Assembly: GCA_020425125.1 (NCBI GenBank)
Contig: JAGQRV010000017.1
Coordinates: forward strand, 1 to 43,643
Source of the DNA: Paracoccaceae bacterium
GTDB lineage: Bacteria > Pseudomonadota > Alphaproteobacteria > Rhodobacterales > Rhodobacteraceae
DNA length: 43,643 bases
Reading direction: 5' to 3'
The notes beneath the pieces were generated by a model. It was not told the origin of the DNA, searched no databases, and saw only the letters and a list, made by a program, of their open reading frames with translations. The position numbers and the translations under genes are program-made. Of the stretch, positions 1,434-41,327 are shown in pieces. Numbering within the stretch: the stretch's first letter is position 1; each line of letters opens with the position of its first letter.

Positions 1434-2351
1434 ATGAAGACCCTACTGAAATCCGTCTCCGTCGCGGCGCTCGGTCTGACCGCTTCGGTCGGCATCGCAA
1501 CCGCACAGGACGACCAGTTGAAGATCGGCATGACGTTCCAGGAGATGAACAATCCCTATTTCGTCAGCATGCAGGAAGCGCTGGTGCAAGCGGCGGACAC
1601 AATCGGCGCAAAGGTCATCGTGACCGACGCCGGGCATGACGTCGCCAAGCAGATCTCGGACGTCGAGGACATGCTCCAGCAAGACATCGATATCCTGCTG
1701 CTGAACCCGACCGACAGCGCAGGTATCGAGGCCGCGGTGCGCATGGCGAAGGATGCCGGCGTGATCGTCGTCGCAGTTGATGCCAATGCCAATGGTCCGG
1801 TCGATACCTTCGTCGGCTCCAAGAACCGCGATGCCGGATACTTGTCCTGCCAGTACCTTGCCGAGGCGATGGGCGGTGAGGGCGAAGTCGCGATCCTCGA
1901 CGGCATTCCAGTGGTTCCGATCCTCCAGCGCGTCGAAGGCTGCAAGGCTGCCCTTGAAGAGGCACCGGGTATCACCCTGGTCGATGTCCAGAACGGCCGC
2001 CAGGACCGTTCGATCGCGCTCGGCGTGGTCGAAAACATGATCCAGGCGCATCCCAATCTCGGCGGAGTCTTCTCGGTCAACGATGGCGGCGCCATGGGCG
2101 CGCTGACCGCGATTCAGGGGGCGGGCAAGGATATCCTTTTGACCTCGGTCGACGGCGCCCCAGAGGCTGTCGCAGCCATCGCGCAAGGCACGCCCTTCAT
2201 CGAGACCACCGCTCAGTTCCCGCGCGACCAGGTGCGCGTCGGACTCGGCATGGCGCTTGCGCAGTACTGGGGAGCGCGGGTTGTTCCGTCCGAAGTGCCG
2301 ATCGACGTGCGCGTCGTGGATGCGGACAACGCCGGGGGGTTCTCCTGGTAA
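1434..2351 (+). CDS. Periplasmic sugar/pentitol-binding protein of an ABC importer (RbsB-like)
   Basis: A 305-residue exported protein of the periplasmic-binding-protein type 1 family. Residues 1 to about 24 form a signal peptide ending ATA-Q. The mature part opens with [14 protein letters not shown], typical of RbsB-like proteins, and continues with [17 protein letters not shown] and a late [10 protein letters not shown] loop. It should capture the substrate and deliver it to the permease encoded downstream. The start at 1434 is preferred over an upstream in-frame ATG because AAGGGAGG precedes it and the signal peptide then begins directly. The neighbouring ribitol dehydrogenase and ribulokinase suggest ribitol or another pentitol as ligand; the protein alone does not show this. 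Confidence 0.92.
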
Positions 2352-2412
2352 GCGTCTGACATTGGCCGCGTCCGGACCTGTCCGGGCGCGGCATCCAGCG
2401 GGAGGAGACGAC

Positions 2413-3915
2413 ATGCTCGAGATGAGTGGAATACGAAAGGCGTTCGGCCCGGTGAAGGTTCTTCACGGCGTGGACCTTGAGGTGCGCGCCGGCGAGGTAC
2501 ACGCCCTGCTGGGCGAAAATGGCGCCGGCAAGTCCACCATGATGAAGATCCTGTGCGGGATCTTGCAGGCGGATGAAGGCACGATCCGCATCGACGGCAA
2601 GGAACGCCACTTCGCGCACTATGACGAGGCCATCGCCGCTGGCGTCGGCATCGTTTTCCAGGAATTCAGCCTCATTCCCTATCTGACGGCGGTCGAGAAC
2701 ATCTTCCTCGCGCGCGAGATCCGGACACGTTTCGGGCTGTTGAACCGCAAGGTCATGCGCGCTCGCGCCAAGGAGGTGCTGGACAAGCTTGGGGTGAACG
2801 TGCCCCTCGACGTGCCGGTTGCCGACCTGAGCGTTGCCGAACAGCAATTTGTTGAAATTGCCAAGGCGCTATCGCTGGATGCGCGCGTGCTCGTCCTCGA
2901 CGAACCCACGGCGACGCTGACACCGGGCGAAGTCGAGTACCTTTTCCGCGTGATGCGCGACCTGCGCACCCATGGTGTCGCCATCGTATTCATTTCGCAC
3001 CATCTCGAGGAAATCTTCGAGATTTGCGACCGCATCACCGTGCTTCGCGATGGCGGGTATGTCGGAACCCGCGCGGTGGCAGAGATCGACACGGACGGAC
3101 TTGTCGAGATGATGGTGGGCCGCCGGATCGAGAGCAATTTCCCGCCCAAGCCGGCCTCGCACCCCCAGGCCCGCGTCGTCATCGATGCCGAGCAAATCCA
3201 GCTCCACAAGAACGGACCTGTCAGCGCCTTCCAGCTCCGTCAGGGCGAGGTTCTGGGCTTTGCAGGTCTTGTCGGCTCGGGGCGCACGGAAACGGCGCTT
3301 TCGATCATGGGGGCTTATCCGGCGTTTCGTGTGAAGGTCGAGATCAACGGTGATCCTGTGCCCCCAAAGAACCCCAGCGAGGCGCTGGCCCGTGGCATTG
3401 GTCTGCTGCCGGAAAGCCGCAAGGAACAGGGCCTGATCACCGCTTTCCCGATCATGCAGAACATCTCGATCAACAACTACGGCAAGTACCGGCGCCTTGG
3501 TGTCTTCCTCGACCTCGCGGCAGAGCGACGCCATACGGTAAACGCCATGCAGGAAGTGCGCGTCAAGGCGCCCGGCCCTGACGTTCCCTGCGATACGCTT
3601 TCTGGTGGCAATCAGCAGAAGGTCGTGATCGCGCGGTGGCTGAACCACCATACACCGATCCTGATCTTCGACGAGCCGACCCGCGGCATCGATGTCGGCG
3701 CAAAGGCCGAAATCTATCAACTCATGCGGAAGCTCACAGAGGATGGCTACTCGATCATCATGATCTCGTCCGAACTGCCGGAGATCACGGGGCTGTCCGA
3801 CCGGGTTTGCGTGTTCCGCAGTGGCGCCATCGTGGCGACGCTGGAAGGGGACGCGATCACATCCGAAGAAATCATGAAACACGCCACAACGGGGAAGCTC
3901 AGATATGTCGCATGA
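2413..3915 (+). CDS. Sugar ABC transporter ATPase with two nucleotide-binding domains (RbsA-like)
   Basis: A 500-residue cytoplasmic ATPase with two fused ABC domains, the usual form for ribose-class importers. The first domain has Walker A GENGAGKS at residues 34-41, the atypical signature LSVAEQQ and Walker [12 protein letters not shown]. The second has a degenerate P-loop (GLVGSGRTE), a full LSGGNQQ signature and [14 protein letters not shown]. Such asymmetry is normal in RbsA. The ATG at 2413 follows GGGAGGAG; the longer open frame upstream overlaps the binding-protein gene and is not credible. It powers uptake together with the binding protein and the permease, whose start overlaps this gene's end by 11 bases. 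Confidence 0.94.
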
Positions 3916-4882
3916 CGTTGCCGCTCAATTGTCGCCATCGGTCCTGCAATCGGTGGCGGCGCGCCTCAAGCGATCACCCCTTCTGCTGCCGCTGGTCGGG
4001 CTGATTGTCGTCTCGACTGTCATGGCTTTCGCCAGCGACAACTTCTTCAGTATCGACAACATCGTCAACGTGCTGCGGCAGCAGTCCATCATCGGAATTC
4101 TTGCCATCGGCATGACCTTCGTGATCCTGACCGGTGGCATCGACCTCTCCGTCGGAGCCGTCATGGCGCTTTGCGGGACGCTTGGCGCGGGGGTCATGGT
4201 GAATATGGGGCTACCCGGTGGGGTCGGCCTTCTCGCGATGATCGTCGTGGGCATCCTTTTCGGTCTCTTCAACGGTCTGCTGGTCGCGTGGGGCAAGATG
4301 CCTGCCATCATCGTGACACTGGCGACGATGCTGATCGCGCGCGGCCTGGGCCTGGTGTACTCTGGCGGCTACCCGGTGAGCGGTTTGCCCGGCTGGATCT
4401 CGTGGTTCGGAATCGGCCGGATCGGTGGCATCCCCGCGCCCATCATCATCATGGTGATCCTCTACGCACTGGCCTGGATCCTATTGCAGCGCACGTCCTT
4501 CGGCCGCCATGTCTACGCGATCGGCGGCAACGAGACCGCCGCCAACCTGTCGGGTGTGAACACGAAACGGATCAAGCTGATCGTGTTCATGATCTCGGGC
4601 TTCGCCTCGGCCATGGCCGCCATCATCCTGACCGGGCGCCTGATGAGCGGTCAGCCGGGCGCCGGCGTCGCCTTCGAACTCGACGCGATCGCGATGGTGG
4701 TGCTCGGCGGCACCGCGATTGCCGGCGGACGCGGGCTGATCCTGGGCACGCTGATCGGGGCGGTGCTATTGGGGATCATCAACAACGGCCTGAATCTGAT
4801 GGGTATCAACCCGTATCTTCAGGACGTGATCAAGGGCTTCATCATTCTTTTGGCCATCTACATCGGTCGCGAATGGCGGTGA
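3905..4882 (+). CDS. Sugar ABC transporter permease (RbsC-like)
   Basis: A 325-residue inner-membrane protein with about eight to ten hydrophobic segments, of the ribose/xylose permease family. The motif [21 protein letters not shown] near residue 75 and the coupling region [15 protein letters not shown] near 210 are hallmarks of RbsC-type permeases. The late GTAIAGGRG segment is also typical. The start lies inside the end of the ATPase gene with GGGGAAG upstream, which implies translational coupling. It forms the channel of the importer. Substrate selectivity cannot be read from the sequence. Confidence 0.93.
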
Positions 4883-4966
4883 GCGAAGCCCGCGGGCCCG
4901 GCGGTTTCTCCCGCCATCCGGGTCCGCATTGAACTCCCCAATGTCCCCTGAACAGGAACTGAGGCG

Positions 4967-24714: not shown

Positions 24715-25501
24715 TGTCAGAGCAACGCGGCTTGAGGCGGGGCAGGGCGGTCGCCCGCGTCTAAACATGACCAAGCGCCCACCTTTCAAGTACTTCAAGA
24801 CGTCGCCCGAAATCATCCGTCTGGCAGTGATGATGTACGTCCGGTTTCCGCTCTCGCTGCGGAATGTCGAGGACTTGGCTCGCACGAGCGCGGCGTCGAG
24901 ATCAGCCACGAGACGGTGCGGTTTTGGTGGCAGCGGTTCGGGACGATGTTCGCGGCGGAGATCCGCAAGCGGCGCGTCGAGGGCATGCGGTCGAGCCACT
25001 GGCGCTGGCACCTGGATGAGTTGTTCGTGAAGATCAACGGCGAGCGGTCGATCACGAGGGCGAGGTCCTGGAGAGTTTCGTGACGAAGACGCGGGACAAG
25101 ACGGCAGCGCTGAAATTCCTCAGGAAGACCCTGAAGCGGCACGGCCGGGCGCATCGCTTCGTCACGGATTGCCTGCGGTCCTACGGGGCCGCCCTGAAGG
25201 AGATCGGTGCCGCCGACCGGCAGCAGACGGGACGCTGGGAAAGCAACCGGGCGGAGAACGGGCACCTGGCGTTTCGACGACGCGAGCGGGCGATGGAGCG
25301 GTTCCGGCGCGTGCGAAGTTTGCAGATGTTCGCCTCCGTCCACGCCTCGGTCTGCAACCATTTCAACTCGGAGCGCAGCCTTTCCTCCAGAGCCACCTTC
25401 AAGCAGAACCGCGCCGCCGCTGTGGCCGAGTGGCGTGAACTCGGATCGGCATGGGGACAGCATCGTTGTCCCAGTTGAGACTGGTTTGAACTTGTCTGAC
25501 A
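24715..25501 (+). mobile_element. IS6-family element, inactive
   Basis: The left end TGTCAGAGCAACGCGGC and the right end, which closes as TTGTCTGACA, are imperfect inverted repeats about 790 bases apart, the standard size of IS6-family elements. The single gene inside is a broken transposase. The same left end occurs twice more, at 31743 and, more divergently, at 31839. Confidence 0.68.
24767..25478 (+). pseudogene. IS6-family transposase, frameshifted and with a core deletion
   Basis: It starts MTKRPPFKYFKTSPEIIRL and keeps FPLSLRNVEDL, then slips frame near 24880. HETVRFWWQRFGTMFAAEIRK and SSHWRWHLDELFVKINGE follow in a second frame. About 12 bases are missing where homologues read HYLWRAVDHEGEVLE, and VLESFVTKTRDKTAALKFLRK then runs in a third register to the stop at 25478. 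The last part includes VTDCLRSYGAALKEIG and RWESNRAENGHLAFRRRE. The enzyme family is clear but the gene cannot give an intact protein. Confidence 0.78.
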
Positions 25502-25645
25502 CCCCCATTTCCCTCAGCGCGAACCGGAAGTATCGGCAGGCGGCATGTTGAACGATCGCCGATGGGAACCGGCGGCGGGCGTAGGAGACTTGGCGGACGC
25601 AGGCCCATATAGTCAGACGTTCGCGATCACCAAACGGTTGACGTG

Positions 25646-25996
25646 ACACTGCCCTTCGATCTCTTCGTCGATACCGGCAACTTGAGTTGGGAGAAGTCCG
25701 TCGCCAAGGTGGTCGAGGACCGCGACGTGCTGCTGGGCTCCTACGATTTTCCCGCCGAGCACTGGAAACACATCCGAACGTTGAACCCGATCGAGAGCAC
25801 CTTTGCCACCGTCCGGCACCACACCCGACGCACCAAGGTCAGCCTCGACCGCAAGACCGGGCTTGCCATAGCCTTCTGCCTGATGAAGTCGGCGCAGAAG
25901 ATATGGCGCAAGCTCGACGGCCGGAACCGCCTGCCGGAGGTCATCGAAGGGGTTGAGTTCCGCGACGGCCGCCGCCACCTTCAAACCGCCGCCTGA
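25646..25996 (+). pseudogene. C-terminal fragment of an IS256-family transposase
   Basis: Translation gives PFDLFVDTGNLSWEKSVAKVVEDRD and then FPAEHWKHIRTLNPIESTFATVRHH, the highly conserved C-terminal block of IS256-type (mutator-like) transposases that contains the last catalytic Glu in NPIEST. It continues to IWRKLDGRNRLPEVIEGV. The N-terminal two thirds, including the DD residues, are absent. The 144 bases before it and the 272 bases after it show no recognisable gene. Confidence 0.8.
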
Positions 25997-26268: not shown

Positions 26269-27255
26269 CTAGCCCTTGTCGTCGTCGAACGCCGCGCAGC
26301 TCTCCAGCTTCACGTTGATCCGGCGCAGGGTGATGGTGACACCGGTCTTGGTACCGGCCTCGTCGCCGCCGGTATCGCCCACGAAGACCAGCGCCTGCAC
26401 CGGATTGCTGCCGCCATAGCTGAACACGTCGTCGGAATGATCGGTGTCGATGTAGGACTCGCGCATGCTGTTGGCGACGTCGTAGCTGAGGATGCGGCTG
26501 CCCGGCGGCGCCGAGAACAGGATGGAATCGCGCTGCTCCTCGGCTGCGGTGTAGTCGTTTTGCGGCGAGTCGAAGGCGCCCGAGCATTCGTAGGCATGCA
26601 TGTAATAGCTGGCCAGGAGTGTCGTCGCCGCGTCCTGGGTCCGCAGGTCCAGCGAGAACTTCACGCAGGGCCCGTGCCCGTCGTATTCGGAATCGCCGCG
26701 GGTGTGCTTGGGCACGAACAGGATCTGCTGCGAGGGGATGGTCTCGGTGACCGCCGGGCAGTGGGCGGCACCGGTCACCCGCTCGGTATGCAGCGCCTCG
26801 ACGCCCCCGGGATCGGGATTCGCGGCGCTGTAGACCGCCACCACCTCAAGCTCGGCGCTACCCTCGATGGTGGCAAAGCCCTTGCAGAAGCCCTGCGGGC
26901 ACAGGCCGCGCGCCTGCTCGATGATGTCGTCGCAGTCGATCTCGTAGGCCTCGCCCGGCCCCAGCTTGTTGGCGTCAAGAAACCCGGTCTTGCCCCCGGC
27001 CATCTCGCCGGGCAACGCCACCGAGAACTCCTTGCGCACCTGCACCGGATCGGCATTGGGGTCCTCGTTCGGATTGAGGATGTTGATCGCCGTGGTATAG
27101 GCCCCGGGCGCCAGGATCGACCCGTCCGCCTTGCCGCAAATGAACTTTACCGGATAAAGCCGCTTTGTCTCCTGGGCCCAGGCGGTTGCCGCGCCCAGTC
27201 CGGCCAGCGCGACGCCAAGAACGACAAGACGGGCCAAGCTGAAAAATCGCGTCAT
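26269..27255 (-). CDS. Exported eight-cysteine protein, paralogue of the C-terminal domain of the neighbouring beta-propeller protein
   Basis: A 328-residue protein of no family I recognise. Residues 1-28 are a signal peptide ending AWA-Q. The mature part has cysteines at 40, 108, 119, 124, 166, 197, 224 and 320, probably four disulfides. It also has the blocks CGK, AYTTAINILN, LPGE-AGG, DCDDI, LCPQGFCKGF, AVYSAANP, GDSEYDGHGPC, AYECSG, DTDHSDD and GDTGGDEAGTKTG. All of these recur with nearly the same spacing in residues 762-1057 of the protein encoded 31 bases upstream. AAGGA precedes the start. A soluble or surface-bound periplasmic or extracellular role is likely; acidic loops might bind calcium. 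Nothing enzymatic is evident. Confidence 0.88.
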   Translation of the reverse strand: MTRFFSLARLVVLGVALAGLGAATAWAQETKRLYPVKFICGKADGSILAPGAYTTAINILNPNEDPNADPVQVRKEFSVALPGEMAGGKTGFLDANKLGPGEAYEIDCDDIIEQARGLCPQGFCKGFATIEGSAELEVVAVYSAANPDPGGVEALHTERVTGAAHCPAVTETIPSQQILFVPKHTRGDSEYDGHGPCVKFSLDLRTQDAATTLLASYYMHAYECSGAFDSPQNDYTAAEEQRDSILFSAPPGSRILSYDVANSMRESYIDTDHSDDVFSYGGSNPVQALVFVGDTGGDEAGTKTGVTITLRRINVKLESCAAFDDDKG

Positions 27256-27286
27256 GGCCTTTCCTTTCTGTACCTCAAACGTTCAG

Positions 27287-30200
27287 TCAGCCTGCATTGC
27301 TGGGCAGGGAACAGGTCTGTAGCCGCACGTCCTGCGCGCGGAAGGTGATGAAGGCGCCGGTCCTGCTGCCGGCCTCGTCGCCCGAGGTGTCGCCGGTCAG
27401 GCGCACCGTCGAAATCAGCTCTGGATCGGCAAAATTCAGCGTGGCGTCGGCATGGTCGGTGTCGATGACCTCGATGGTCTGGCTCGACTTCAGCGTATGG
27501 CTGACGATCCGCCCGCCCGGCCCGGCCAGCGCCACGATCTGCGACCGGCCTCCGCGCGCGGCGGTGAAATCGGCCCGCGGCGCGGTGAAACTGCCCGAGC
27601 ACTCGTAGGCGTTCAGGTCGTAGTCCAGCGCCAACGCCGAGCCGTCGTCGACATCGTGCAGGTTGACCGTCAGCCGCATGCAGGGGCCGTGGCCGCCAAA
27701 GTCGGAATCGCCCTGGGTATGCGGCGGCACCAGCAGTTCCTGATGTTCGGGCACCTTCAGGACCGTCTCGGTGCATTGCAGGCCGGGCGTCGGCTGGCGC
27801 GTCAGGGTCAGATCGGCCACCGCGGCCCGCTCCGGGTTCTCGCTACTGTATACGGCGACGATATCCAGCGGCGCGGGACTGTCGATCTGCACGAAGCCCT
27901 TGCACAGGGTTCCCGGGCACAGCCGCCCGGCCTCGGCCAGGATATCGTCACAGTCCAGTTCCGCCGCCTCGCCGGGTGCCAGCGTCGCACCGTTCTGCAG
28001 GGGCGCGGTCCCGCCCGCCGCCTCGCCCGGAAGGCCCACGGTGAACTGCCGGCGATAGGTCGAGGGCGCCGCCCCCTCAGCATCGCGGTTCAGGATATTG
28101 ATCGCGGTGGTGTAGGTTCCCGCGGCCAGAACCCTGTCGTCGCCCTTGCCGCAGACGAACTTCATGTTGAACGCCATCGGCCGCGGTCGCGCCGGCGCAC
28201 AGCTCCAGGCGCCTCGGCCCAGGGTCCCGGCAACCAGCACCTCGTCGGCCTCGTCGTATTCCAGATCCGTGACCGGCGCGTTCGGGATCCCCGAACAGGG
28301 AACCGACCAAGCGGCAAGCGGCAGGGCGTCGGCCCAGAACACCCCGCGGTCGGTCCCCACCACAACGGCGTGGAGATCGGCGACCGAGATCACGTCGACC
28401 GAGCGCAACTGACCAGGGCGGAACGAGGTAAAGAGGTCGCCCGTCACATTGGTCCAGGTCGCCCCGGCATCCAGCGTCTGAAACACGTTCGAAGTGTCGA
28501 CCACATAGGCGGTCTGCGACGCGCCGGGGTCGATCGCCACGTCGACGACCCGGTTGGCACCGGGATAGGTGGCCGAGGCTGTCAGCGTGGCGCCGGGGCT
28601 GGCGCCGTTGCGCACGAAGACCTGGTTGACCGATCCGACGTAAAGCATGTCCACGTTGTCCGCGGCGCCATAGCCGATGGACTCGCCGCGGATCGAGGAA
28701 TTCGCCGCGATGCCGGGCCCGATCGCGGTCACGGTCTGCCCGGCGTCGAGCGACTCGTAAACCGCGTTGCCGGCCCCGACGATCAGACGGGTGCCGTCGG
28801 CGTTGTTGACCACGACGGGCGTGTAGAATTGCGCGGTAATGGCGGGGCCGCCGGCCAGCACGGTAAGGGGCGCGGTCGTCTGCGAGATCAGGGCATTGTC
28901 CTCGTCATAGGTGCGCACGCTCAGCGTGTTTGCCTGGCCGTTCAGCCGTTGCGAGCTGAAGAACCGCGTCGATTGGCCGGGCGTGCTGATGTCGTCGACA
29001 GCCACGGAACTGCCGTCGCCACCGCGGATATCGCGATGCGGCGCCTGCTCGACCTCCAGCTGCTCGGGCGTTCCGTTATCCTGCGCGCCGCCCAGGATCC
29101 GGTTCGACACCGCGTCCCAGGCAATCGAATGGAACTCGGTCGTCTGCAGATCGCCGTTCGCCGACACCCAGTCGCCGCGGCTGGTCTGCGGCAACGTGCG
29201 GCGGTACACCCCACCGTCATTCCCCTCGATCAGGTTGCCGTTGGCGTCGACGGCCATGACCCGTGAATCGGGATGCGGCGAGGTGCCGGTCAGCGTGCCG
29301 CCGCCGGCGGGACCTTGCGAATTGGAATGGGTCAGGTGCACGAATTGCTGCCCGGCCGGCTGGCTGGAATCGCCCCGGAACAGGCGCGCCGAAAACCGGT
29401 TGGCACCGATGGAATTGGGAAACGGCCCGGGCTGCGCGTCGCCGCCGATATAGACGATGGTGCCGTTGGCCGAGAACGGATCGGCCGCCAGCGACAGGTT
29501 GGGGTTGGCCTGGCCGCCGGGATGGATGCCGATCAAACCCGCCGCGCCCTCGTTGGTCTGGGGCAGATCCATCTGGGCCCAGTTGGTGCCGGAATCGCCG
29601 CTGCGAAAGACTGCTGTCAGCGCCGCTTGACCCGCCGGCGGTGCAGGCAGCGGCTGCGCGATGGCCACGAAGACCACGGTGCCGGAGGGCGCCGAGATGC
29701 GCAGGTTCGACACTGGCGCCAGCGCGTTCATCGCCGCGTTGCTGATTAGCCTCCAGGTCGCCCCGGTATCGGTGCTGATGAAGACGCCGTTGTTGCCGGC
29801 GTTGGTGTAAAGCGTCCCCGGCGTCCCCGGCACGCCGGCCAGATCTAGCGATCCGCCAGTGGGCAGGCCCGATCCCGCCAGACCGGAAATGCGCGTCCAA
29901 TTGGCCCCGGTATCCGTGCTGCGCCAGATGCCGCGGTTGGTGTCGGCCACCACGATGGTGCTGCCGCGCGGCGCGACGCCCGAGATGTTGGTGCCGGCCA
30001 GCGCCGCCTGACCCAGCGCCGTCCAGGTCGCCCCGCCATCGGAGGTGCGCAGCACGCCCGCGCCCGTACCGCCAGCGCGCTGGATGTTCGAGAACCGCCC
30101 GATCCCGGCCACCAGCGTCTGGTTGCGGCGGTCGGTCGGGTCGAATTCCAGCGCCCCGATCGACAGCGTGTCCTGGGTGTCGGTCAGCGGCCGCCAGGTC

Positions 30201-30460
30201 GGATGTTCGGCCAGCGCGTCGTCAGTCCGCCACACGCCGCCGTTCACGGCGCCGATGAACAACACGTTGCCGTTTGCCGGATCAGGCGCCAGCGCCTGCA
30301 CGGCGCCGACCTGCTCGTTGTCCTCGATATTCTCGACGTTGTTGCCCTGGCGGATCGGTGCCGGGCCTTCGGCGCGCCAGATCCCGACCTCGGCAAGCGC
30401 CGGCCACGACAGCAGGACGGCAAGGCCGACGACAAGGGCGGAGCGTCGAAGAAGGGCCAT
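27287..30460 (-). CDS. Large exported Asp-box beta-propeller protein with a C-terminal eight-cysteine domain
   Basis: A 1057-residue protein with a signal peptide (residues 1-23, ALA-E). Residues about 25-755 look like a sialidase/sortilin-type propeller: Asp-boxes occur at 139-146 (TSDGGATW), 181-188 (STDTGANW), 229-236 (STDTGATW), 287-294 (SGDSGTNW) and 662-669 (TLDAGATW), with GGVW, GIWRS and GVYRR strand ends. No set of sialidase catalytic residues is obvious, so binding or scaffolding is more likely than hydrolysis. Residues 762-1057 are the eight-cysteine domain (770, 837, 848, 853, 896, 927, 954, 1050). GGAG lies six bases before the ATG. It is the middle gene of three, 49 bases after the first and 31 before the third. 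Function unknown. Confidence 0.9.
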   Translation of the reverse strand: MALLRRSALVVGLAVLLSWPALAEVGIWRAEGPAPIRQGNNVENIEDNEQVGAVQALAPDPANGNVLFIGAVNGGVWRTDDALAEHPTWRPLTDTQDTLSIGALEFDPTDRRNQTLVAGIGRFSNIQRAGGTGAGVLRTSDGGATWTALGQAALAGTNISGVAPRGSTIVVADTNRGIWRSTDTGANWTRISGLAGSGLPTGGSLDLAGVPGTPGTLYTNAGNNGVFISTDTGATWRLISNAAMNALAPVSNLRISAPSGTVVFVAIAQPLPAPPAGQAALTAVFRSGDSGTNWAQMDLPQTNEGAAGLIGIHPGGQANPNLSLAADPFSANGTIVYIGGDAQPGPFPNSIGANRFSARLFRGDSSQPAGQQFVHLTHSNSQGPAGGGTLTGTSPHPDSRVMAVDANGNLIEGNDGGVYRRTLPQTSRGDWVSANGDLQTTEFHSIAWDAVSNRILGGAQDNGTPEQLEVEQAPHRDIRGGDGSSVAVDDISTPGQSTRFFSSQRLNGQANTLSVRTYDEDNALISQTTAPLTVLAGGPAITAQFYTPVVVNNADGTRLIVGAGNAVYESLDAGQTVTAIGPGIAANSSIRGESIGYGAADNVDMLYVGSVNQVFVRNGASPGATLTASATYPGANRVVDVAIDPGASQTAYVVDTSNVFQTLDAGATWTNVTGDLFTSFRPGQLRSVDVISVADLHAVVVGTDRGVFWADALPLAAWSVPCSGIPNAPVTDLEYDEADEVLVAGTLGRGAWSCAPARPRPMAFNMKFVCGKGDDRVLAAGTYTTAINILNRDAEGAAPSTYRRQFTVGLPGEAAGGTAPLQNGATLAPGEAAELDCDDILAEAGRLCPGTLCKGFVQIDSPAPLDIVAVYSSENPERAAVADLTLTRQPTPGLQCTETVLKVPEHQELLVPPHTQGDSDFGGHGPCMRLTVNLHDVDDGSALALDYDLNAYECSGSFTAPRADFTAARGGRSQIVALAGPGGRIVSHTLKSSQTIEVIDTDHADATLNFADPELISTVRLTGDTSGDEAGSRTGAFITFRAQDVRLQTCSLPSNAG

Positions 30461-30509
30461 GGTCTACTCCATGCCTGATCGAATGTCGGGGACGGATGTC
30501 CCCCGCCCA

Positions 30510-31484
30510 TCACTCGGGCGTCGGTCCCGAATATGCGGTGTCGCGCAGCGCCTGGGCCCAGAGCTGATCTCCGCTGCCAAGGTCGAAGGCCCGCAGGGAT
30601 GGCGGCGTCGCGATCATCTGATCATCCTGGCGTCGCTCGTAGGCGGACGAGGTCTGCAACAGCACGCCGCCCACCACGGCGAACGGTGCCAGGCGCTGAA
30701 AATCCCGGATCTGCCCGATCGGCTGATCTCGCGCGATATCCCAGATGGTCCATTGGTATTTCTGCCAGGTCCGGTTATCGGCAATCTGTGTGCTTGTCAT
30801 TGCATATCCCGAATTGGCAGACCGGAATTGGGGTTGCGGCGCCTTCGCCATCCTTTCGCCTTCGCCCAGATCGGGCGGAAGGTTTGCAATCAGATAGGAT
30901 CCGGCATCCTTGTCGATGACCGATGCGGTTCCGGCGACAAGATCGACGCGCACGACGCCGGAAAGGATTTCCGGTTTCGGGTTCTCGCCGCCTGCCAGCT
31001 CAGCCCCGCTTATCTCGACAAGTCTCTGTTCCCAATTGACGATGATCAGTTCGCCGATTTCCGCCGCCCGCACGGAAAACGTCCGGCCCAGTGTGTCGTC
31101 CACCGAAGCGACGGTCCCGGGCGGCAAGGGCACTTCGATCTTCCTTGCCGTCGCCCCCTGCGCGGCCACATCCAGGACCACCAACAACAGTAACGGGCGC
31201 GGGCTGTCAGCCTGCGCCAGAAGAAGAGTATCCTTTATGATCAATGGCCTGTCGGCGTCACCCGATCGCCACAGCACATTGCCTTCGCCAAGGGCCACGG
31301 CTTCCAGCCCCTGTTCCGGTCGCATCAGAACGGCAAGCTTGCCCGTCGGATCGACGACGACGCCCGGTTCGAGTCCAAACCCGACCTCGGCCCTTGCGGC
31401 CGGGGCGCCAAGGCCAAGCGCGATCGCCGTCACGCAGGCCTGCACCCATTTCGCCAACGACAGATCCCGAAAGAGAAAACGCAC
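30510..31484 (-). CDS. Exported protein with PQQ-propeller-like strand motifs
   Basis: A 324-residue protein. Residues 1 to about 32 look like a signal peptide ending ARA-E. NVLWRSGDADRPLIIKDTLLLA near 70-90 and, close to the end, LRAFDLGSGDQLWAQALRD resemble strands of PQQ-type beta-propellers (the pattern L-A-D-x-G-x-x-L-W). The middle repeats are weak, so a propeller fold is an inference. The best start is a GTG at 31484, with AGGAG only two bases upstream; no ATG lies near. It is the first of three genes on this strand that all encode exported proteins, which suggests a shared surface or periplasmic role. No function can be named. Confidence 0.75.
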   Translation of the reverse strand: MRFLFRDLSLAKWVQACVTAIALGLGAPAARAEVGFGLEPGVVVDPTGKLAVLMRPEQGLEAVALGEGNVLWRSGDADRPLIIKDTLLLAQADSPRPLLLLVVLDVAAQGATARKIEVPLPPGTVASVDDTLGRTFSVRAAEIGELIIVNWEQRLVEISGAELAGGENPKPEILSGVVRVDLVAGTASVIDKDAGSYLIANLPPDLGEGERMAKAPQPQFRSANSGYAMTSTQIADNRTWQKYQWTIWDIARDQPIGQIRDFQRLAPFAVVGGVLLQTSSAYERRQDDQMIATPPSLRAFDLGSGDQLWAQALRDTAYSGPTPE

Positions 31485-35129: not shown

Positions 35130-35286
35130 CCGAAAATTCCAGTGGATGCACATTCCTGTGCAGGTTAACCCCGGCCATCGTGCTAATCAATTGAAGTGAG
35201 ACGGGGCTGAACCGTTTCGGCGATCTTACCCGACATCCGGAAATATCGGACTTCTGTTGCAGACCGCTAAGAAAGAAGGTGCTGAT

Positions 35287-37620
35287 ATGAGAGGATTCGT
35301 TGCGGCATTGGCCGCGCTGTTCCTTGCGACCCAGGGTCAGTGCCAGGAATGGCCGGATCGAAACCATCTTCCGATCCCCCTTGCCCCGTTCGAAGGCAAG
35401 ATCGGCCAGACCTACCAGGACTCGGAACCCGACTGGCAGGAGCCGGTGGCCGCACCCGAGGGCGCGCCAAATGTGATCGTTATCCTGCTCGACGACGTGG
35501 GCTTTGGCCAGACCTCAACCTTCGGAGGACTTATCCCGACCCCGGCGCTGGACAAACTCGCCGAGGAGGGACTGAGCTACACGCGTTTTCACACCACGGC
35601 AATCTGCGGGCCATCGCGCGCTGCGCTGCTCACCGGTCGGAACCATCATACCAGCGGCAACGGCTTCCTGATGGAATGGGCCACGGGGTTCCCGAGCTAC
35701 TCCACGATGCTTCAGCGTGACACGGCGACCATAGGCGAGATCCTCAAGGACAACGGCTATTCCACGTGGTGGTTCGGCAAGAACCACAACACGCCCGACT
35801 GGGAGCAGACCGTCACCGGACCCTTCGACCGCTGGCCCACGGGGATGGGGTTCGACTATTTCTACGGCTTCAACTCTGGCGAGACCCACCAATTCTACCC
35901 GGTGCTCTTTGAAAACACGACGCCGGTCGAACCCGACAAGACCCCGGCAGAGGGGTACCACTTCATGACCGACATGACCGACCGCGCCATCGCGCGCATG
36001 AAGTTTGCCAAGTCGGTCGCGCCCAACAAGCCGTTCTTCATGTATTTCGCGCCGGGTGCCATGCACGCCCCGCACCACGTCACCGCCGAATGGCGCGAGA
36101 AGTTCGACGGTGCTTTCGACATGGGTTGGGAGGCTTACCGCGAGCAAGTCTTCGCACGGCAAAAGGAGATGGGGATCGTTCCACCCGACACCAAACTCAC
36201 GCCTCGCCCCGACTGGGTCCCAGCTTGGGACACGCTGAGCGAAGTGCAGAAGGAGGTCTATGATGACCTCATGGAGAACTTCGCCGGCTACTTCGCCTTC
36301 ACCGATCATGAGGTCGGCCGCCTGCTGGACGCAGTGAAGGAACTGCCGGACGCCGAGAACACGATGGTGATCTACATTGTCGGCGACAACGGCGCCTCCT
36401 CCGAGGGCGGGCCGGACGGGACACTGAACGAGATCATGAACCTCAACGGCATCCCGTCCAACCTCGAGGACATCAAGGCCAACCTCGACAAGCTCGGCGG
36501 GCCGGAGTCCGAGCCGCATTACCCTGTGGGTTGGGCCTGGGCCGGCAATACGCCGTTCCAGTGGGTCAAGCAGGTTGCTTCGCACCTGGGCGGTACGCGC
36601 AACCCGATGGTGATCAGCTGGCCGGCGCAGATCCACCATGACGCCGCGCCGCGCACCGCCTTCCTGCACCTCGTCGACGTGGTACCGACAATCCTCGAAG
36701 CCGCGCATATCCCGATGCCAGAGACGGTGAACGGGGTGGCGCAGAAGCCGCTGGAGGGCGAGAGCTTCCTGGCCAGCTTCACTGATCCCGAGTTCAAGGG
36801 CCGCACGCAGCAATATTTCGAGGTGTTCTCCAACCGCTCGATGTATGCCGACGGTTGGAAGGCCGATGCTCAGCACACTTTCCCCTGGCGGCAGGACTAT
36901 GCGCCGGGCAACTGGGGCAAGGACAAGTGGGAACTCTATAACCTCGACGAGGATTTCTCCGAGGCCAATGACCTCGCTGCCGAGAACCCCGAGAAGCTCG
37001 AAGAGCTGAAGGCGATGCTGGACGAGGCCTTCGAGAAATACGGCGTCCTGCCGCTCGACGACCGCGGATCGGCACGCCTCGCGATTGCGAAGCCGCCGGT
37101 GCCAGGGGCCGAAGAAGGTGCGACCAACTTCACTTATCACGAAGGCGCCATCCGGATTGCCGAACCGGCGGCACCGCCGATGAAGAATCGCTCCTGGACG
37201 CTTACGGCGAAGGTTGCGACCGACGGGGCCGGTACCGAGGGCGTCATCATGGGCTTCGGCGGTATCGCAGCGGGACTCGTGCTTTACCTCGACGCCGGCG
37301 TGCCGATCTTCGACTACAACTTTTTCGAGGAGCACACAGTGGTGAGGGGCACCGAACCGCTGCCTGCCGGCGATGCCGAGATCACGCTCGACTTTGCCTA
37401 TCAGGGCGCAGAGGGCGAGGTGGGCAAGGGCGCCGTGATCACGCTCTCGGTCAACGGAATTGACGTGGCGTCGGGGTCGATGGGCTCAACGGTTGCCGGG
37501 CGCTTCGGCATCGACACCTTCGGTATCGGCGAGGACAGCGGCCAGCCCGTCACCGCGGCCTACGAGCCACCCTTCGCGTTCACCGGTGGGATCGACAGCG
37601 TCGTGGTCGATGTGCGTTGA
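35287..37620 (+). CDS. Exported arylsulfatase with a C-terminal accessory domain
   Basis: A 777-residue type I sulfatase. A signal peptide covers residues 1 to about 19. Metal ligands DD are at 69-70 in [11 protein letters not shown]. The formylglycine site [13 protein letters not shown] has Cys107 in CxPSR form. GKNHNTP supplies the Lys-x-His pair, and [11 protein letters not shown] supplies further metal ligands. About residues 610-777 form an extra beta-rich domain ([28 protein letters not shown]) that may bind a glycan or sulfated ligand. It hydrolyses a sulfate ester in the periplasm or outside; the substrate is unknown. GAAGG precedes the ATG. It has a paralogue at 38949 with the same layout. 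No formylglycine-generating enzyme gene is in the window. Confidence 0.92.
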
Positions 37621-38687: not shown

Positions 38688-38948
38688 GGAAATTTCTGCC
38701 AAATGCCCAAGGCTGGGCATCTTTGTGGGGGGAACTGGACTAATAATGAAGGACTACGGGACGGACATCGTCGCTGCCCCGACAGTCTTGTGCATCTCTC
38801 TCCGACTACTCAGGTCGATTGTCGCAGCCTTCAGGAGATGACACTTCAAGCCTCTTCGGTCACCTCGAGTTCCGACGAACCGGCCATGACTTGCAGCAAG
38901 TAACACCGGCGAATTTAGTTGCCTTCACCTGAATCAGGGAGACATCTG

Positions 38949-41327
38949 ATGAACAGATATGGACGACCAGCGCGCCTGCTTCTGCTGGCGCTATTCGTTG
39001 CAAGTTTCGTGACCTCAGCCAGGGCTCAGGCGTCCGACACACCGCTCGGCGCAAGGAACGGGCAGGTCACGCTGCCTTATGCCGAGCAGAAGTTCGGTGG
39101 CAATGTGGGTACGACATATCTCAACTCCGATCCGCCGCAGTTTCCGGCGCCGATTGCGGCCCCCGAGGGAGCGCCGAACGTGCTGCTGATCCTGCTGGAT
39201 GACGTGGGCTTTGGACAGTTCGACCTGACCGGCGGCGGCGTGCCTTCGCCGGCGATGGACGCGCTGGCAGATGAGGGGCTGCTTTATACCCGCTTTCACA
39301 CCACTGCCCTTTGCTCGCCGACGCGTGCCGCGCTTTTGACCGGGCGCAACCACAACGTCTCCGGGACGGGTGTGATTACAGAACTCGCGACGGGCTACGA
39401 TGGCTATACCGGAATCATTCCGAAGGACACGGCAACCGTTGCCGAGATTCTGCGCCAGAACGGCTATGTTACCGCCTGGTTCGGCAAGAACCACAACACG
39501 CCAATCTACGAGACGAGCGCCGTGGGGCCCTACGATCACTGGCCGAACGGCCTGGGTTTTGACTATTTCTATGGCTTCATGGCTGGCGATACCAACCAGC
39601 TCCGGCCGTACCTCTATGAGAACCAGACCCCGATTGGAACGCCCGAGGCAGCGGACTATTACGTCAGCGTCGATCTTGCCGATCACACCATCGACTGGCT
39701 GAAGCGGATTGAAGCAATCCAGCCCGACAAGCCCTGGTTCGCCTATCTCGCACCGGCCGCGACCCACGCGCCGCACCAGGCACCAAAGGAACTGATCGAC
39801 CAGTTCAAGGGCAAGTTCGACATGGGCTGGGACGCCTATCGGGAGCAGACATTCGAGAGGCAGAAAGAGCTTGGGATCGTGCCGCAGGAAGCGGTGCTGA
39901 CGCAGCGGCCCGCGAGCCTGCCGGCGTGGGACAGTCTGAACGACGACCAGAAGCGGCTCTATACCCGCATGATGGAGGTATTCGCCGCCTATGGTCTTCA
40001 GGTGGACCAGGAGGTCGGGCGCGTACTCGACTACGTCGCATCGCTGCCGGACGCAGACAACACGATGATCCTCTATGTCATCGGCGACAACGGCGCCTCG
40101 GCAGAGGGTGGCTTCGATGGAACCCTGAACGAGAACGCATTCTTCAATGCCTACCTGATGACCAAGGAGGACATGCTGGATCGGATCGACGAGATCGGCA
40201 CCGAGTTGCACTTCAACCACTTCCCGGCCGGCTGGGCTTGGGCGATGGATGCGCCGTTCCAGTGGACCAAGCAGGTCGCCAGCCATCTTGGCGGCGTCCG
40301 TAATCCGATGATCGTCAGATGGCCCGCGCGCTATGGCGAGGGTGGCCAGACGCGGACGCAGTTCCTTCATGTCATTGACATCGCCCCGACGATCCTCGAC
40401 GCGGCGGGCATCATCGAGCCCCGTAGCGTCAACGGAACCGCTCAGACCCCGATCCAGGGCAAGAGCTTCCTCAGCACGCTGGACAACGCGGGAGCCGACG
40501 AGGTCCGCACCAGTCAATACTTCGAGATGTTCGTGAACCGGGGCATGTACAAGGACGGATGGTGGGCCGCATCGCTGGCCTTCGAGCCATGGGACCCAGT
40601 GCGGGGCGAATTCGACCCGATCACTGCGGAATGGGAACTCTACAACCTCGACGAGGACTTCACGCAAGCCAATAACGTCGCCGCGGAGAATCCCGACAAG
40701 CTGGCCGAGATGGAGGCGTTGTGGTGGGCGGAAGCGTCGGCCAACAAGGCGCTGCCGCTCGACTGGCGTGGTGCAGAGCGGTTCAGCGGAGAGCTGACGG
40801 GCAAGCCCAACCTCGCCGGCGACCGCACGACGTTCACCTATCCGGGCGTCATGGCCGGACTGCCCGAGGCGTCGGCCCCGGATCTCAAGAACAAGTCCTT
40901 CTCCATCACTGCCATGGTGGATATTGACGACAATGCAAACGGCGTGATCTTCACTCAGGGTGGCAACACCGGGGGCTGGGCTTTCTATCTCAAGGAAGGG
41001 AAACTCAAGGTTGCCCACAACTACATCGATGTCGACGTTTACCTGGTCGAGAGCGAGATCCCCGTTCCAGCAGGCGCGCACGAACTGACAATGAACTTTA
41101 CTTACGAGGGCGGCGACGAGTTTGGAAAGGGCGGCACGGTTACCCTCTCGGTGGACGGAGCTGAAGTCGCCAGCGGCTCGATTGAGAAGACGACGCCATT
41201 CAAGTATTCGTTGTCGGAAAATCAAGATATCGGCACCGACACCGGAACGCCGGTGACGTACGACTACATGCCGCCGTTCGATTTCCAGGGCCAGCTGGAA
41301 CAGGTGGTCGTGGCCCTCAAGAAGTAG
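38949..41327 (+). CDS. Exported arylsulfatase, paralogue of the upstream sulfatase
   Basis: A 792-residue type I sulfatase with a signal peptide (residues 1-26, ARA-Q). The metal ligands DD are at 84-85 and the formylglycine site [13 protein letters not shown] has Cys122 in CxPTR form. GKNHNTP, FDYFYGF and IGDNGASAEGG are shared with the first sulfatase. The C-terminal beta-rich domain (SFSITAMVDI, GKGGTVTLSVDGAEVASGS) is also shared. It should hydrolyse sulfate esters outside the cytoplasm after maturation by a formylglycine-generating enzyme encoded elsewhere. AGGGAGAC precedes the ATG; an earlier in-frame ATG lacks such a site. The 261 bases upstream hold its promoter and the start of the dead regulator. 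Confidence 0.92.
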   Translation: MNRYGRPARLLLLALFVASFVTSARAQASDTPLGARNGQVTLPYAEQKFGGNVGTTYLNSDPPQFPAPIAAPEGAPNVLLILLDDVGFGQFDLTGGGVPSPAMDALADEGLLYTRFHTTALCSPTRAALLTGRNHNVSGTGVITELATGYDGYTGIIPKDTATVAEILRQNGYVTAWFGKNHNTPIYETSAVGPYDHWPNGLGFDYFYGFMAGDTNQLRPYLYENQTPIGTPEAADYYVSVDLADHTIDWLKRIEAIQPDKPWFAYLAPAATHAPHQAPKELIDQFKGKFDMGWDAYREQTFERQKELGIVPQEAVLTQRPASLPAWDSLNDDQKRLYTRMMEVFAAYGLQVDQEVGRVLDYVASLPDADNTMILYVIGDNGASAEGGFDGTLNENAFFNAYLMTKEDMLDRIDEIGTELHFNHFPAGWAWAMDAPFQWTKQVASHLGGVRNPMIVRWPARYGEGGQTRTQFLHVIDIAPTILDAAGIIEPRSVNGTAQTPIQGKSFLSTLDNAGADEVRTSQYFEMFVNRGMYKDGWWAASLAFEPWDPVRGEFDPITAEWELYNLDEDFTQANNVAAENPDKLAEMEALWWAEASANKALPLDWRGAERFSGELTGKPNLAGDRTTFTYPGVMAGLPEASAPDLKNKSFSITAMVDIDDNANGVIFTQGGNTGGWAFYLKEGKLKVAHNYIDVDVYLVESEIPVPAGAHELTMNFTYEGGDEFGKGGTVTLSVDGAEVASGSIEKTTPFKYSLSENQDIGTDTGTPVTYDYMPPFDFQGQLEQVVVALKK

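Follow-up and report, generated by a model that had tools for sequence, protein, structure and literature searches.

We consider three adjacent open reading frames (ORF1, ORF2 and ORF3, in the order of reading) on the minus strand of a 43,643-nucleotide stretch of DNA, referred to here as the window; it makes up contig 97 in a Paracoccaceae genome of 4.0 Mb. What the data show is an accessory module that is widespread and undescribed, in an arrangement seen only once so far. The ORF2 protein carries two modules, A and B, as a tail behind a propeller region, and ORF3 encodes a paralogue of this tail on its own. Module A recurs as an accessory part of secreted proteins in several bacterial phyla and has no Pfam model. 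The three genes as a set, on the other hand, are an accessory set not conserved in the genus.

The shared tail and its two modules

Between the ORF3 protein and the ORF2 tail, identity is 43% and each of the eight cysteines has its counterpart (ORF3 residues 40, 108, 119, 124, 166, 197, 224 and 320 against ORF2 residues 770, 837, 848, 853, 896, 927, 954 and 1050). A preliminary description, made from the letters of the window alone, had proposed an eight-cysteine domain common to the two proteins. The shared cysteines bear this out, but profile searches divide the region into module A (ORF3 residues 31-157) and module B (residues 163-323), and most of the cysteines are not kept in relatives: two of four are common in module A (18 of 18 aligned rows) and one of four in module B (three of three rows). 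Module B shows no similarity to module A, and neither finds anything below E 0.28 among PDB sequences. The genome holds just two copies of module A, both in this trio, and they are sisters with a support of 100/99. The features are as follows.

30510-31484, minus strand: ORF1, 324 amino acids (aa), exported; GTG start behind AGGAG; no relative detected
27287-30460, minus strand: ORF2, 1057 aa, with signal peptide, Asp-box propeller region and modules A and B
30392-30460, minus strand: ORF2 signal-peptide-like segment, residues 1-23, read by eye
28205-30391, minus strand: ORF2 propeller region, residues 24-752, with five strict Asp-boxes; kin of GH74 and Sortilin-Vps10
27794-28174, minus strand: ORF2 module A
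27299-27790, minus strand: ORF2 module B
26269-27255, minus strand: ORF3, 328 aa, with signal peptide and a free copy of modules A and B
27175-27255, minus strand: ORF3 signal-peptide-like segment, residues 1-27, read by eye
26785-27165, minus strand: ORF3 module A, modelled; predicted fold resembling Anabaena sensory rhodopsin transducer (ASRT)
26287-26769, minus strand: ORF3 module B

The gene positions and the gaps of 49 bases (ORF1/ORF2) and 31 bases (ORF2/ORF3) are exactly those of the preliminary description, and the start sites and the codon usage agree with them. Ribosome-binding-like sequences stand upstream of all three genes (AGGAG for ORF1, GGAG for ORF2 and AAGGAAAGG for ORF3), and the three N-termini, read by eye, resemble ordinary signal peptides, as had been claimed. 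With a codon-usage model trained on seven neighbouring genes, the stated frame scores best in each case (0.24, 0.38 and 0.44 bits per codon for ORF1, ORF2 and ORF3). The ORF2 open frame of 1058 codons is far outside the longest frames of 200 simulated regions (maximum 668), whereas 324 to 328 aa is a chance length there (mean longest frame 328). The coding status of ORF1 and ORF3 therefore rests on codon usage and start sites, and for ORF3 also on homology.

Module A in other secreted proteins, its predicted fold and its possible role

Module A occurs without module B in one further genome among 385 of the class, two among 398 of the phylum and four among 295 of the family; these samples, and those of relatives used below, overlap. 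A profile of the whole tail returned, besides our own genome, one module-A protein from the class sample, and four module-A proteins and one module-B protein from the family sample. Three module-A proteins were then used for a scan of genome contigs with two peptide patterns, which gave 40 stretches, ten of them related and two of these already known. Outside the window, the resulting set comprises 16 proteins from 15 contigs; ORF2 and ORF3 bring it to 18 rows. Where sources are named, they are Litchfieldella, Mesorhizobium, an uncultured Roseobacter, Roseovarius, and metagenome-assembled genomes (MAGs) of Rhizobiaceae, Alphaproteobacteria (two), Symploca, Rhodothermaceae (two copies) and Myxococcales.

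A Pfam scan of the 16 proteins (E up to 0.01) lists no stretch over module A, and a profile search of the fetched loci finds one module A per frame. Its company is varied. Above the Pfam cut-off, propeller repeats are present in four of the 16 proteins (NHL, DUF5122 twice, PD40), CARDB in seven and DUF11 in five (both in two, either in ten), and M23 and VWA in one each. BNR repeats lie below the cut-off in L035 and in the frame preceding the module-A frame of L012. The motif HE..H..[GK]..H, with K in one case, appears in five of the 16, where reprolysin-type Pfam models match below the cut-off. Two proteins, L030 and L042, contain no Pfam family, and L042 is little besides module A.

Three of the loci deserve separate mention. 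L042 (1478-1990, Myxococcales MAG) encodes a solitary module A, about 147 aa long and by eye lacking an evident signal peptide, which may be an intracellular form. In L009 of genome G492, a BNR-propeller frame and a module-A/CARDB frame lie in the same reading frame, divided by a single TAG (2470-2472); two genes, a broken gene and an assembly error are all compatible with this. The Rhodothermaceae locus L033 has two adjoining, closely related module-A proteins (2-1345 and 1712-4894), the first or second of which is truncated where the contig stops. Each of the two carries DUF11, module A and CARDB, and one has the metzincin-like motif.

Module B is much rarer. It was seen once without module A, in a family genome (L024, 197 aa, signal-peptide-like start), and the three module-B rows share 27 invariant columns. 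Two module-B matches among the 398 genomes of the phylum (E 0.002 and 0.009) were rejected as porin-like and MutS-like proteins (labels by eye), which leaves our own genome only in that sample; among 71 relatives of the L024 genome, itself included, only that genome has it. A two-row structure model of the whole tail gave mostly a predicted local distance difference test (pLDDT) score below 40 over module B and was not used.

For module A of ORF3 alone the model is better (pLDDT 87.6, predicted template-modelling score 0.80), and the fold predicted from it is a beta-sandwich of the ASRT, or TM1070, type. ASRT/ASRAH (Pfam PF07100) is a proposed sugar- or small-molecule-binding superfamily of multimeric proteins (De Souza, Iyer and Aravind 2009, PMC2739507). 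By sequence, module A of ORF3 does not match PF07100 up to E 10, and hhalign of the module-A and ASRT profiles gives E 0.029 and 0.018, with one of 200 shuffles equally good. Only one PF07100 gene is present in 61 relatives, in a genome other than our own, and a BFVD search with module A gives nothing at E 0.001.

Among the published features of ASRAH are a Trp that is conserved where strand 1 begins and an Asn, nearly invariant, where strand 2 ends (PMC2739507). In the register given by hhalign and strand E21-30 of the model, the Asn position is Asn in 15 of the 18 module-A rows, Ser in two and His in one, whereas the strand-1 Trp is found in none, the aromatic column being Tyr in 17 rows and Phe in one. 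Where ASRAH has its SHE..C signature, module A has Y.T..N, formed by Tyr53, Thr55 and Asn58 of strand 2, which are invariant in all 18 rows. Module A is further set apart by its two invariant cysteines, which probably pair with each other. Secreted ASRAH versions come as dyads or tetrads per chain (PMC2739507), in contrast to the single copy of module A, and the carriers differ: amidases and actinobacterial lipoproteins for ASRAH, but propellers, metzincin-motif and other proteins for module A.

The reading that we favour, to which as a whole we give a probability of about 0.4, is that the tail docks the propeller on a ligand of the envelope or matrix, with ORF3 as partner or competitor. The ligand on which module A would dock its carrier would belong to the cell envelope or the extracellular matrix and would most likely be a glycan. 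Held at this docking site, the ORF2 propeller would act as a non-enzymatic recognition or scaffold part. ORF3, exported free, would either complete a multimer with the ORF2 tail or occupy the same sites. The multimer is suggested by analogy with the solo Thermotoga ASRT protein, a tetramer in which the dimer interface partly walls the cleft (PMC2739507). Here we infer the ligand, the location, the pairing and the role of ORF1. The preliminary description had pictured an exported set with no obvious enzyme or regulator and a binding role, and this fits, the predicted fold of module A being that of a proposed sugar-binding superfamily. Its further idea, that the free domain competes with or caps the fused one, is suited by the sister relation of the two module A copies. 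Taken as a whole, its interpretation is partly supported.

Alternatively, module A could resemble CARDB and DUF11 in being a structural spacer, or a cap for oligomerization or stability, towards the C-terminus of secreted proteins, with ORF3 as a leftover duplicate. Only 3 to about 200 residues remain after module A in the 16 relatives, CARDB or DUF11 (above the Pfam cut-off) stands behind it in nine, and the N-terminal parts of the carriers are unrelated, which suggests a generic role. Against this, in four of the 16 proteins, the stand-alone L042 among them, the frame stops within about 31 residues of module A and nothing follows it, and the invariant Tyr53, Thr55 and Asn58 would be unneeded in a mere spacer. 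We regard such a cap as a somewhat unlikely explanation.

The docking reading can also be carried further. Module A might be a fourth, secreted and so far undescribed branch of ASRT (ASRAH), an interchangeable module that docks proteases and propellers of at least four phyla on a glycan of the envelope or matrix, fused here to the new module B and duplicated as a diffusible ORF3 that forms mixed multimers with the propeller-bound tail and so sets the display of the propeller. In this extended form we hold it to be doubtful. While the trio may be one-off, it has led to a Pfam-less accessory module that, across phyla, is attached to secreted proteins of protease-like and propeller type. If it is true that the ASRT-like fold means ligand binding, "hypothetical" secreted proteins would be tied to one docking function, for which the free and fused pair of ORF3 and ORF2 offers a small and directly testable case.

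The ORF2 propeller and ORF1

As proposed in the preliminary description, ORF2 is an Asp-box propeller. Five strict Asp-boxes, a number reached by none of 1000 shuffles, belong to repeats that spread over about 730 aa, and Pfam Sortilin-Vps10 (PF15902) matches above its cut-off (38 against 33 bits, best stretch residues 136-239). From its sequence the propeller is of a kind already known, that of the Sortilin-Vps10 and GH74-like Asp-box propellers. No Sortilin_C is listed behind it (Pfam, E up to 1), a difference from Sortilin-Vps10 proteins, in which 10CC and Sortilin_C domains follow the propeller, and compared with both known kinds ORF2 alone adds modules A and B.

Could ORF2 be an active glycosidase, GH74- or sialidase-like, with the tail as its carbohydrate-binding module? 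The best PDB sequence relatives are GH74-kind xyloglucanases (E 1e-6), and the NCBIfam glycosylhydrolase model F510_1955 (NF045728) matches at E 3e-14. PMC2716378 describes GH74 xyloglucanases as tandem seven-bladed Asp-box propellers. However, the F510_1955 score of 52.9 bits is far under the cut-off of 175, and the alignments run mainly across the Asp-box repeats that GH74 and ORF2 have in common. In the HMMER alignment Val72 of ORF2 stands against the Asp of the GH74 RTDIGG segment, which we take to be the catalytic residue and which is thus not retained. An active glycosidase is very improbable.

Among 72,556 plasmid records searched by tblastn, 13 match the propeller, three of them with one place covering at least 80% of it. 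WP_173945860.1 of Microvirga terrae aligns to ORF2 residues 15-752 and WP_109335901.1 of Rhodococcus oxybenzonivorans to residues 52-752, at 25-26% identity. Both stop near residue 752, where the ORF2 tail starts, and have no module-A match, which makes the tail look added. The fetched stretches of 14 and 12 kb around them contain no gene resembling ORF1 or ORF3. At L018 347-1927, on the Microvirga plasmid, a gene for a matrixin-family metalloprotease is situated upstream of the propeller that lacks the tail; a hypothetical gene and an IS5 transposase separate the two.

ORF1 had been called PQQ-propeller-like. This is not confirmed: it matches no Pfam family up to E 10 and no NCBIfam model up to E 1, and it contains just two short G..LW-type segments. 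It has no match outside our own genome in 61 genomes (our own and 60 relatives, six of them congeners), no credible relative elsewhere among 249 genomes of the phylum and none in the plasmid records. Three marginal matches (E 8.6e-4 to 0.0086) were rejected, two as frames antisense to longer genes and one as a Maf-like gene (labels by eye). What points to ORF1 as a possible member of one unit with ORF2 and ORF3 is its position and its export.

Recurrence and genomic setting

The check proposed with the preliminary description was whether the trio recurs in unrelated genomes. As a set it was not found outside its own genome in the genomes examined. ORF3 is confined to our own genome among the same 61; a contig scan with tail patterns gave 70 stretches, none related, with the limit that two peptide patterns per scan may let distant trios escape; and in the fetched stretches (L001-L042) no ORF1 relative lies beside module A, module B or the two propeller relatives. 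Plasmid records have no match to ORF3, module B or the module A of L005, phages none to module B (the sole query tried), and viral contigs none to ORF3 or module B. Homologues occur only singly: the propeller without the tail, A without B or ORF1, and B alone. This is largely the outcome that the preliminary description had named as counting against its own proposal. With the propeller kind known and the set one-off so far, "undescribed surface system" was too strong a name. Literature searches outside subscription journals turned up no account of module A or of the trio.

It is then a fair question whether the trio is a unit at all. ORF1, unrelated, could stand by chance before a propeller gene with a duplicated tail, in a variable region with insertion-sequence remnants. 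ORF1 and ORF3 are absent from the 60 relatives, an IS240/IS6-type transposase remnant (25080-25475, Pfam DDE_Tnp_IS240) lies about 0.8 kb downstream of ORF3, a neighbouring sulfatase has matches of 42-49% in three of the six congeners and none in the other three, and the codon score and the G+C content at third codon positions of ORF1 are below those of ORF2 and ORF3. The short gaps on one strand, the three signal-peptide-like starts, the good start sites and the intact frames speak the other way, and we consider a chance arrangement rather unlikely. The absence of ORF1 and ORF3 from relatives, the sister module A copies found only here and the IS240 remnant favour a recently assembled or imported accessory set.

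A second fragment downstream of ORF3 (25643-25993) has no Pfam match and is presumably an IS256-type transposase end. The window contains no tRNA, and a search for defence genes gave no PADLOC match up to E 0.01. The sulfatase genes at 35257-37617 and 38919-41324 (Pfam Sulfatase and SGSH_C) are 49% alike over most of their length, and two more sulfatase relatives are present in the genome, on contigs 33 and 95.
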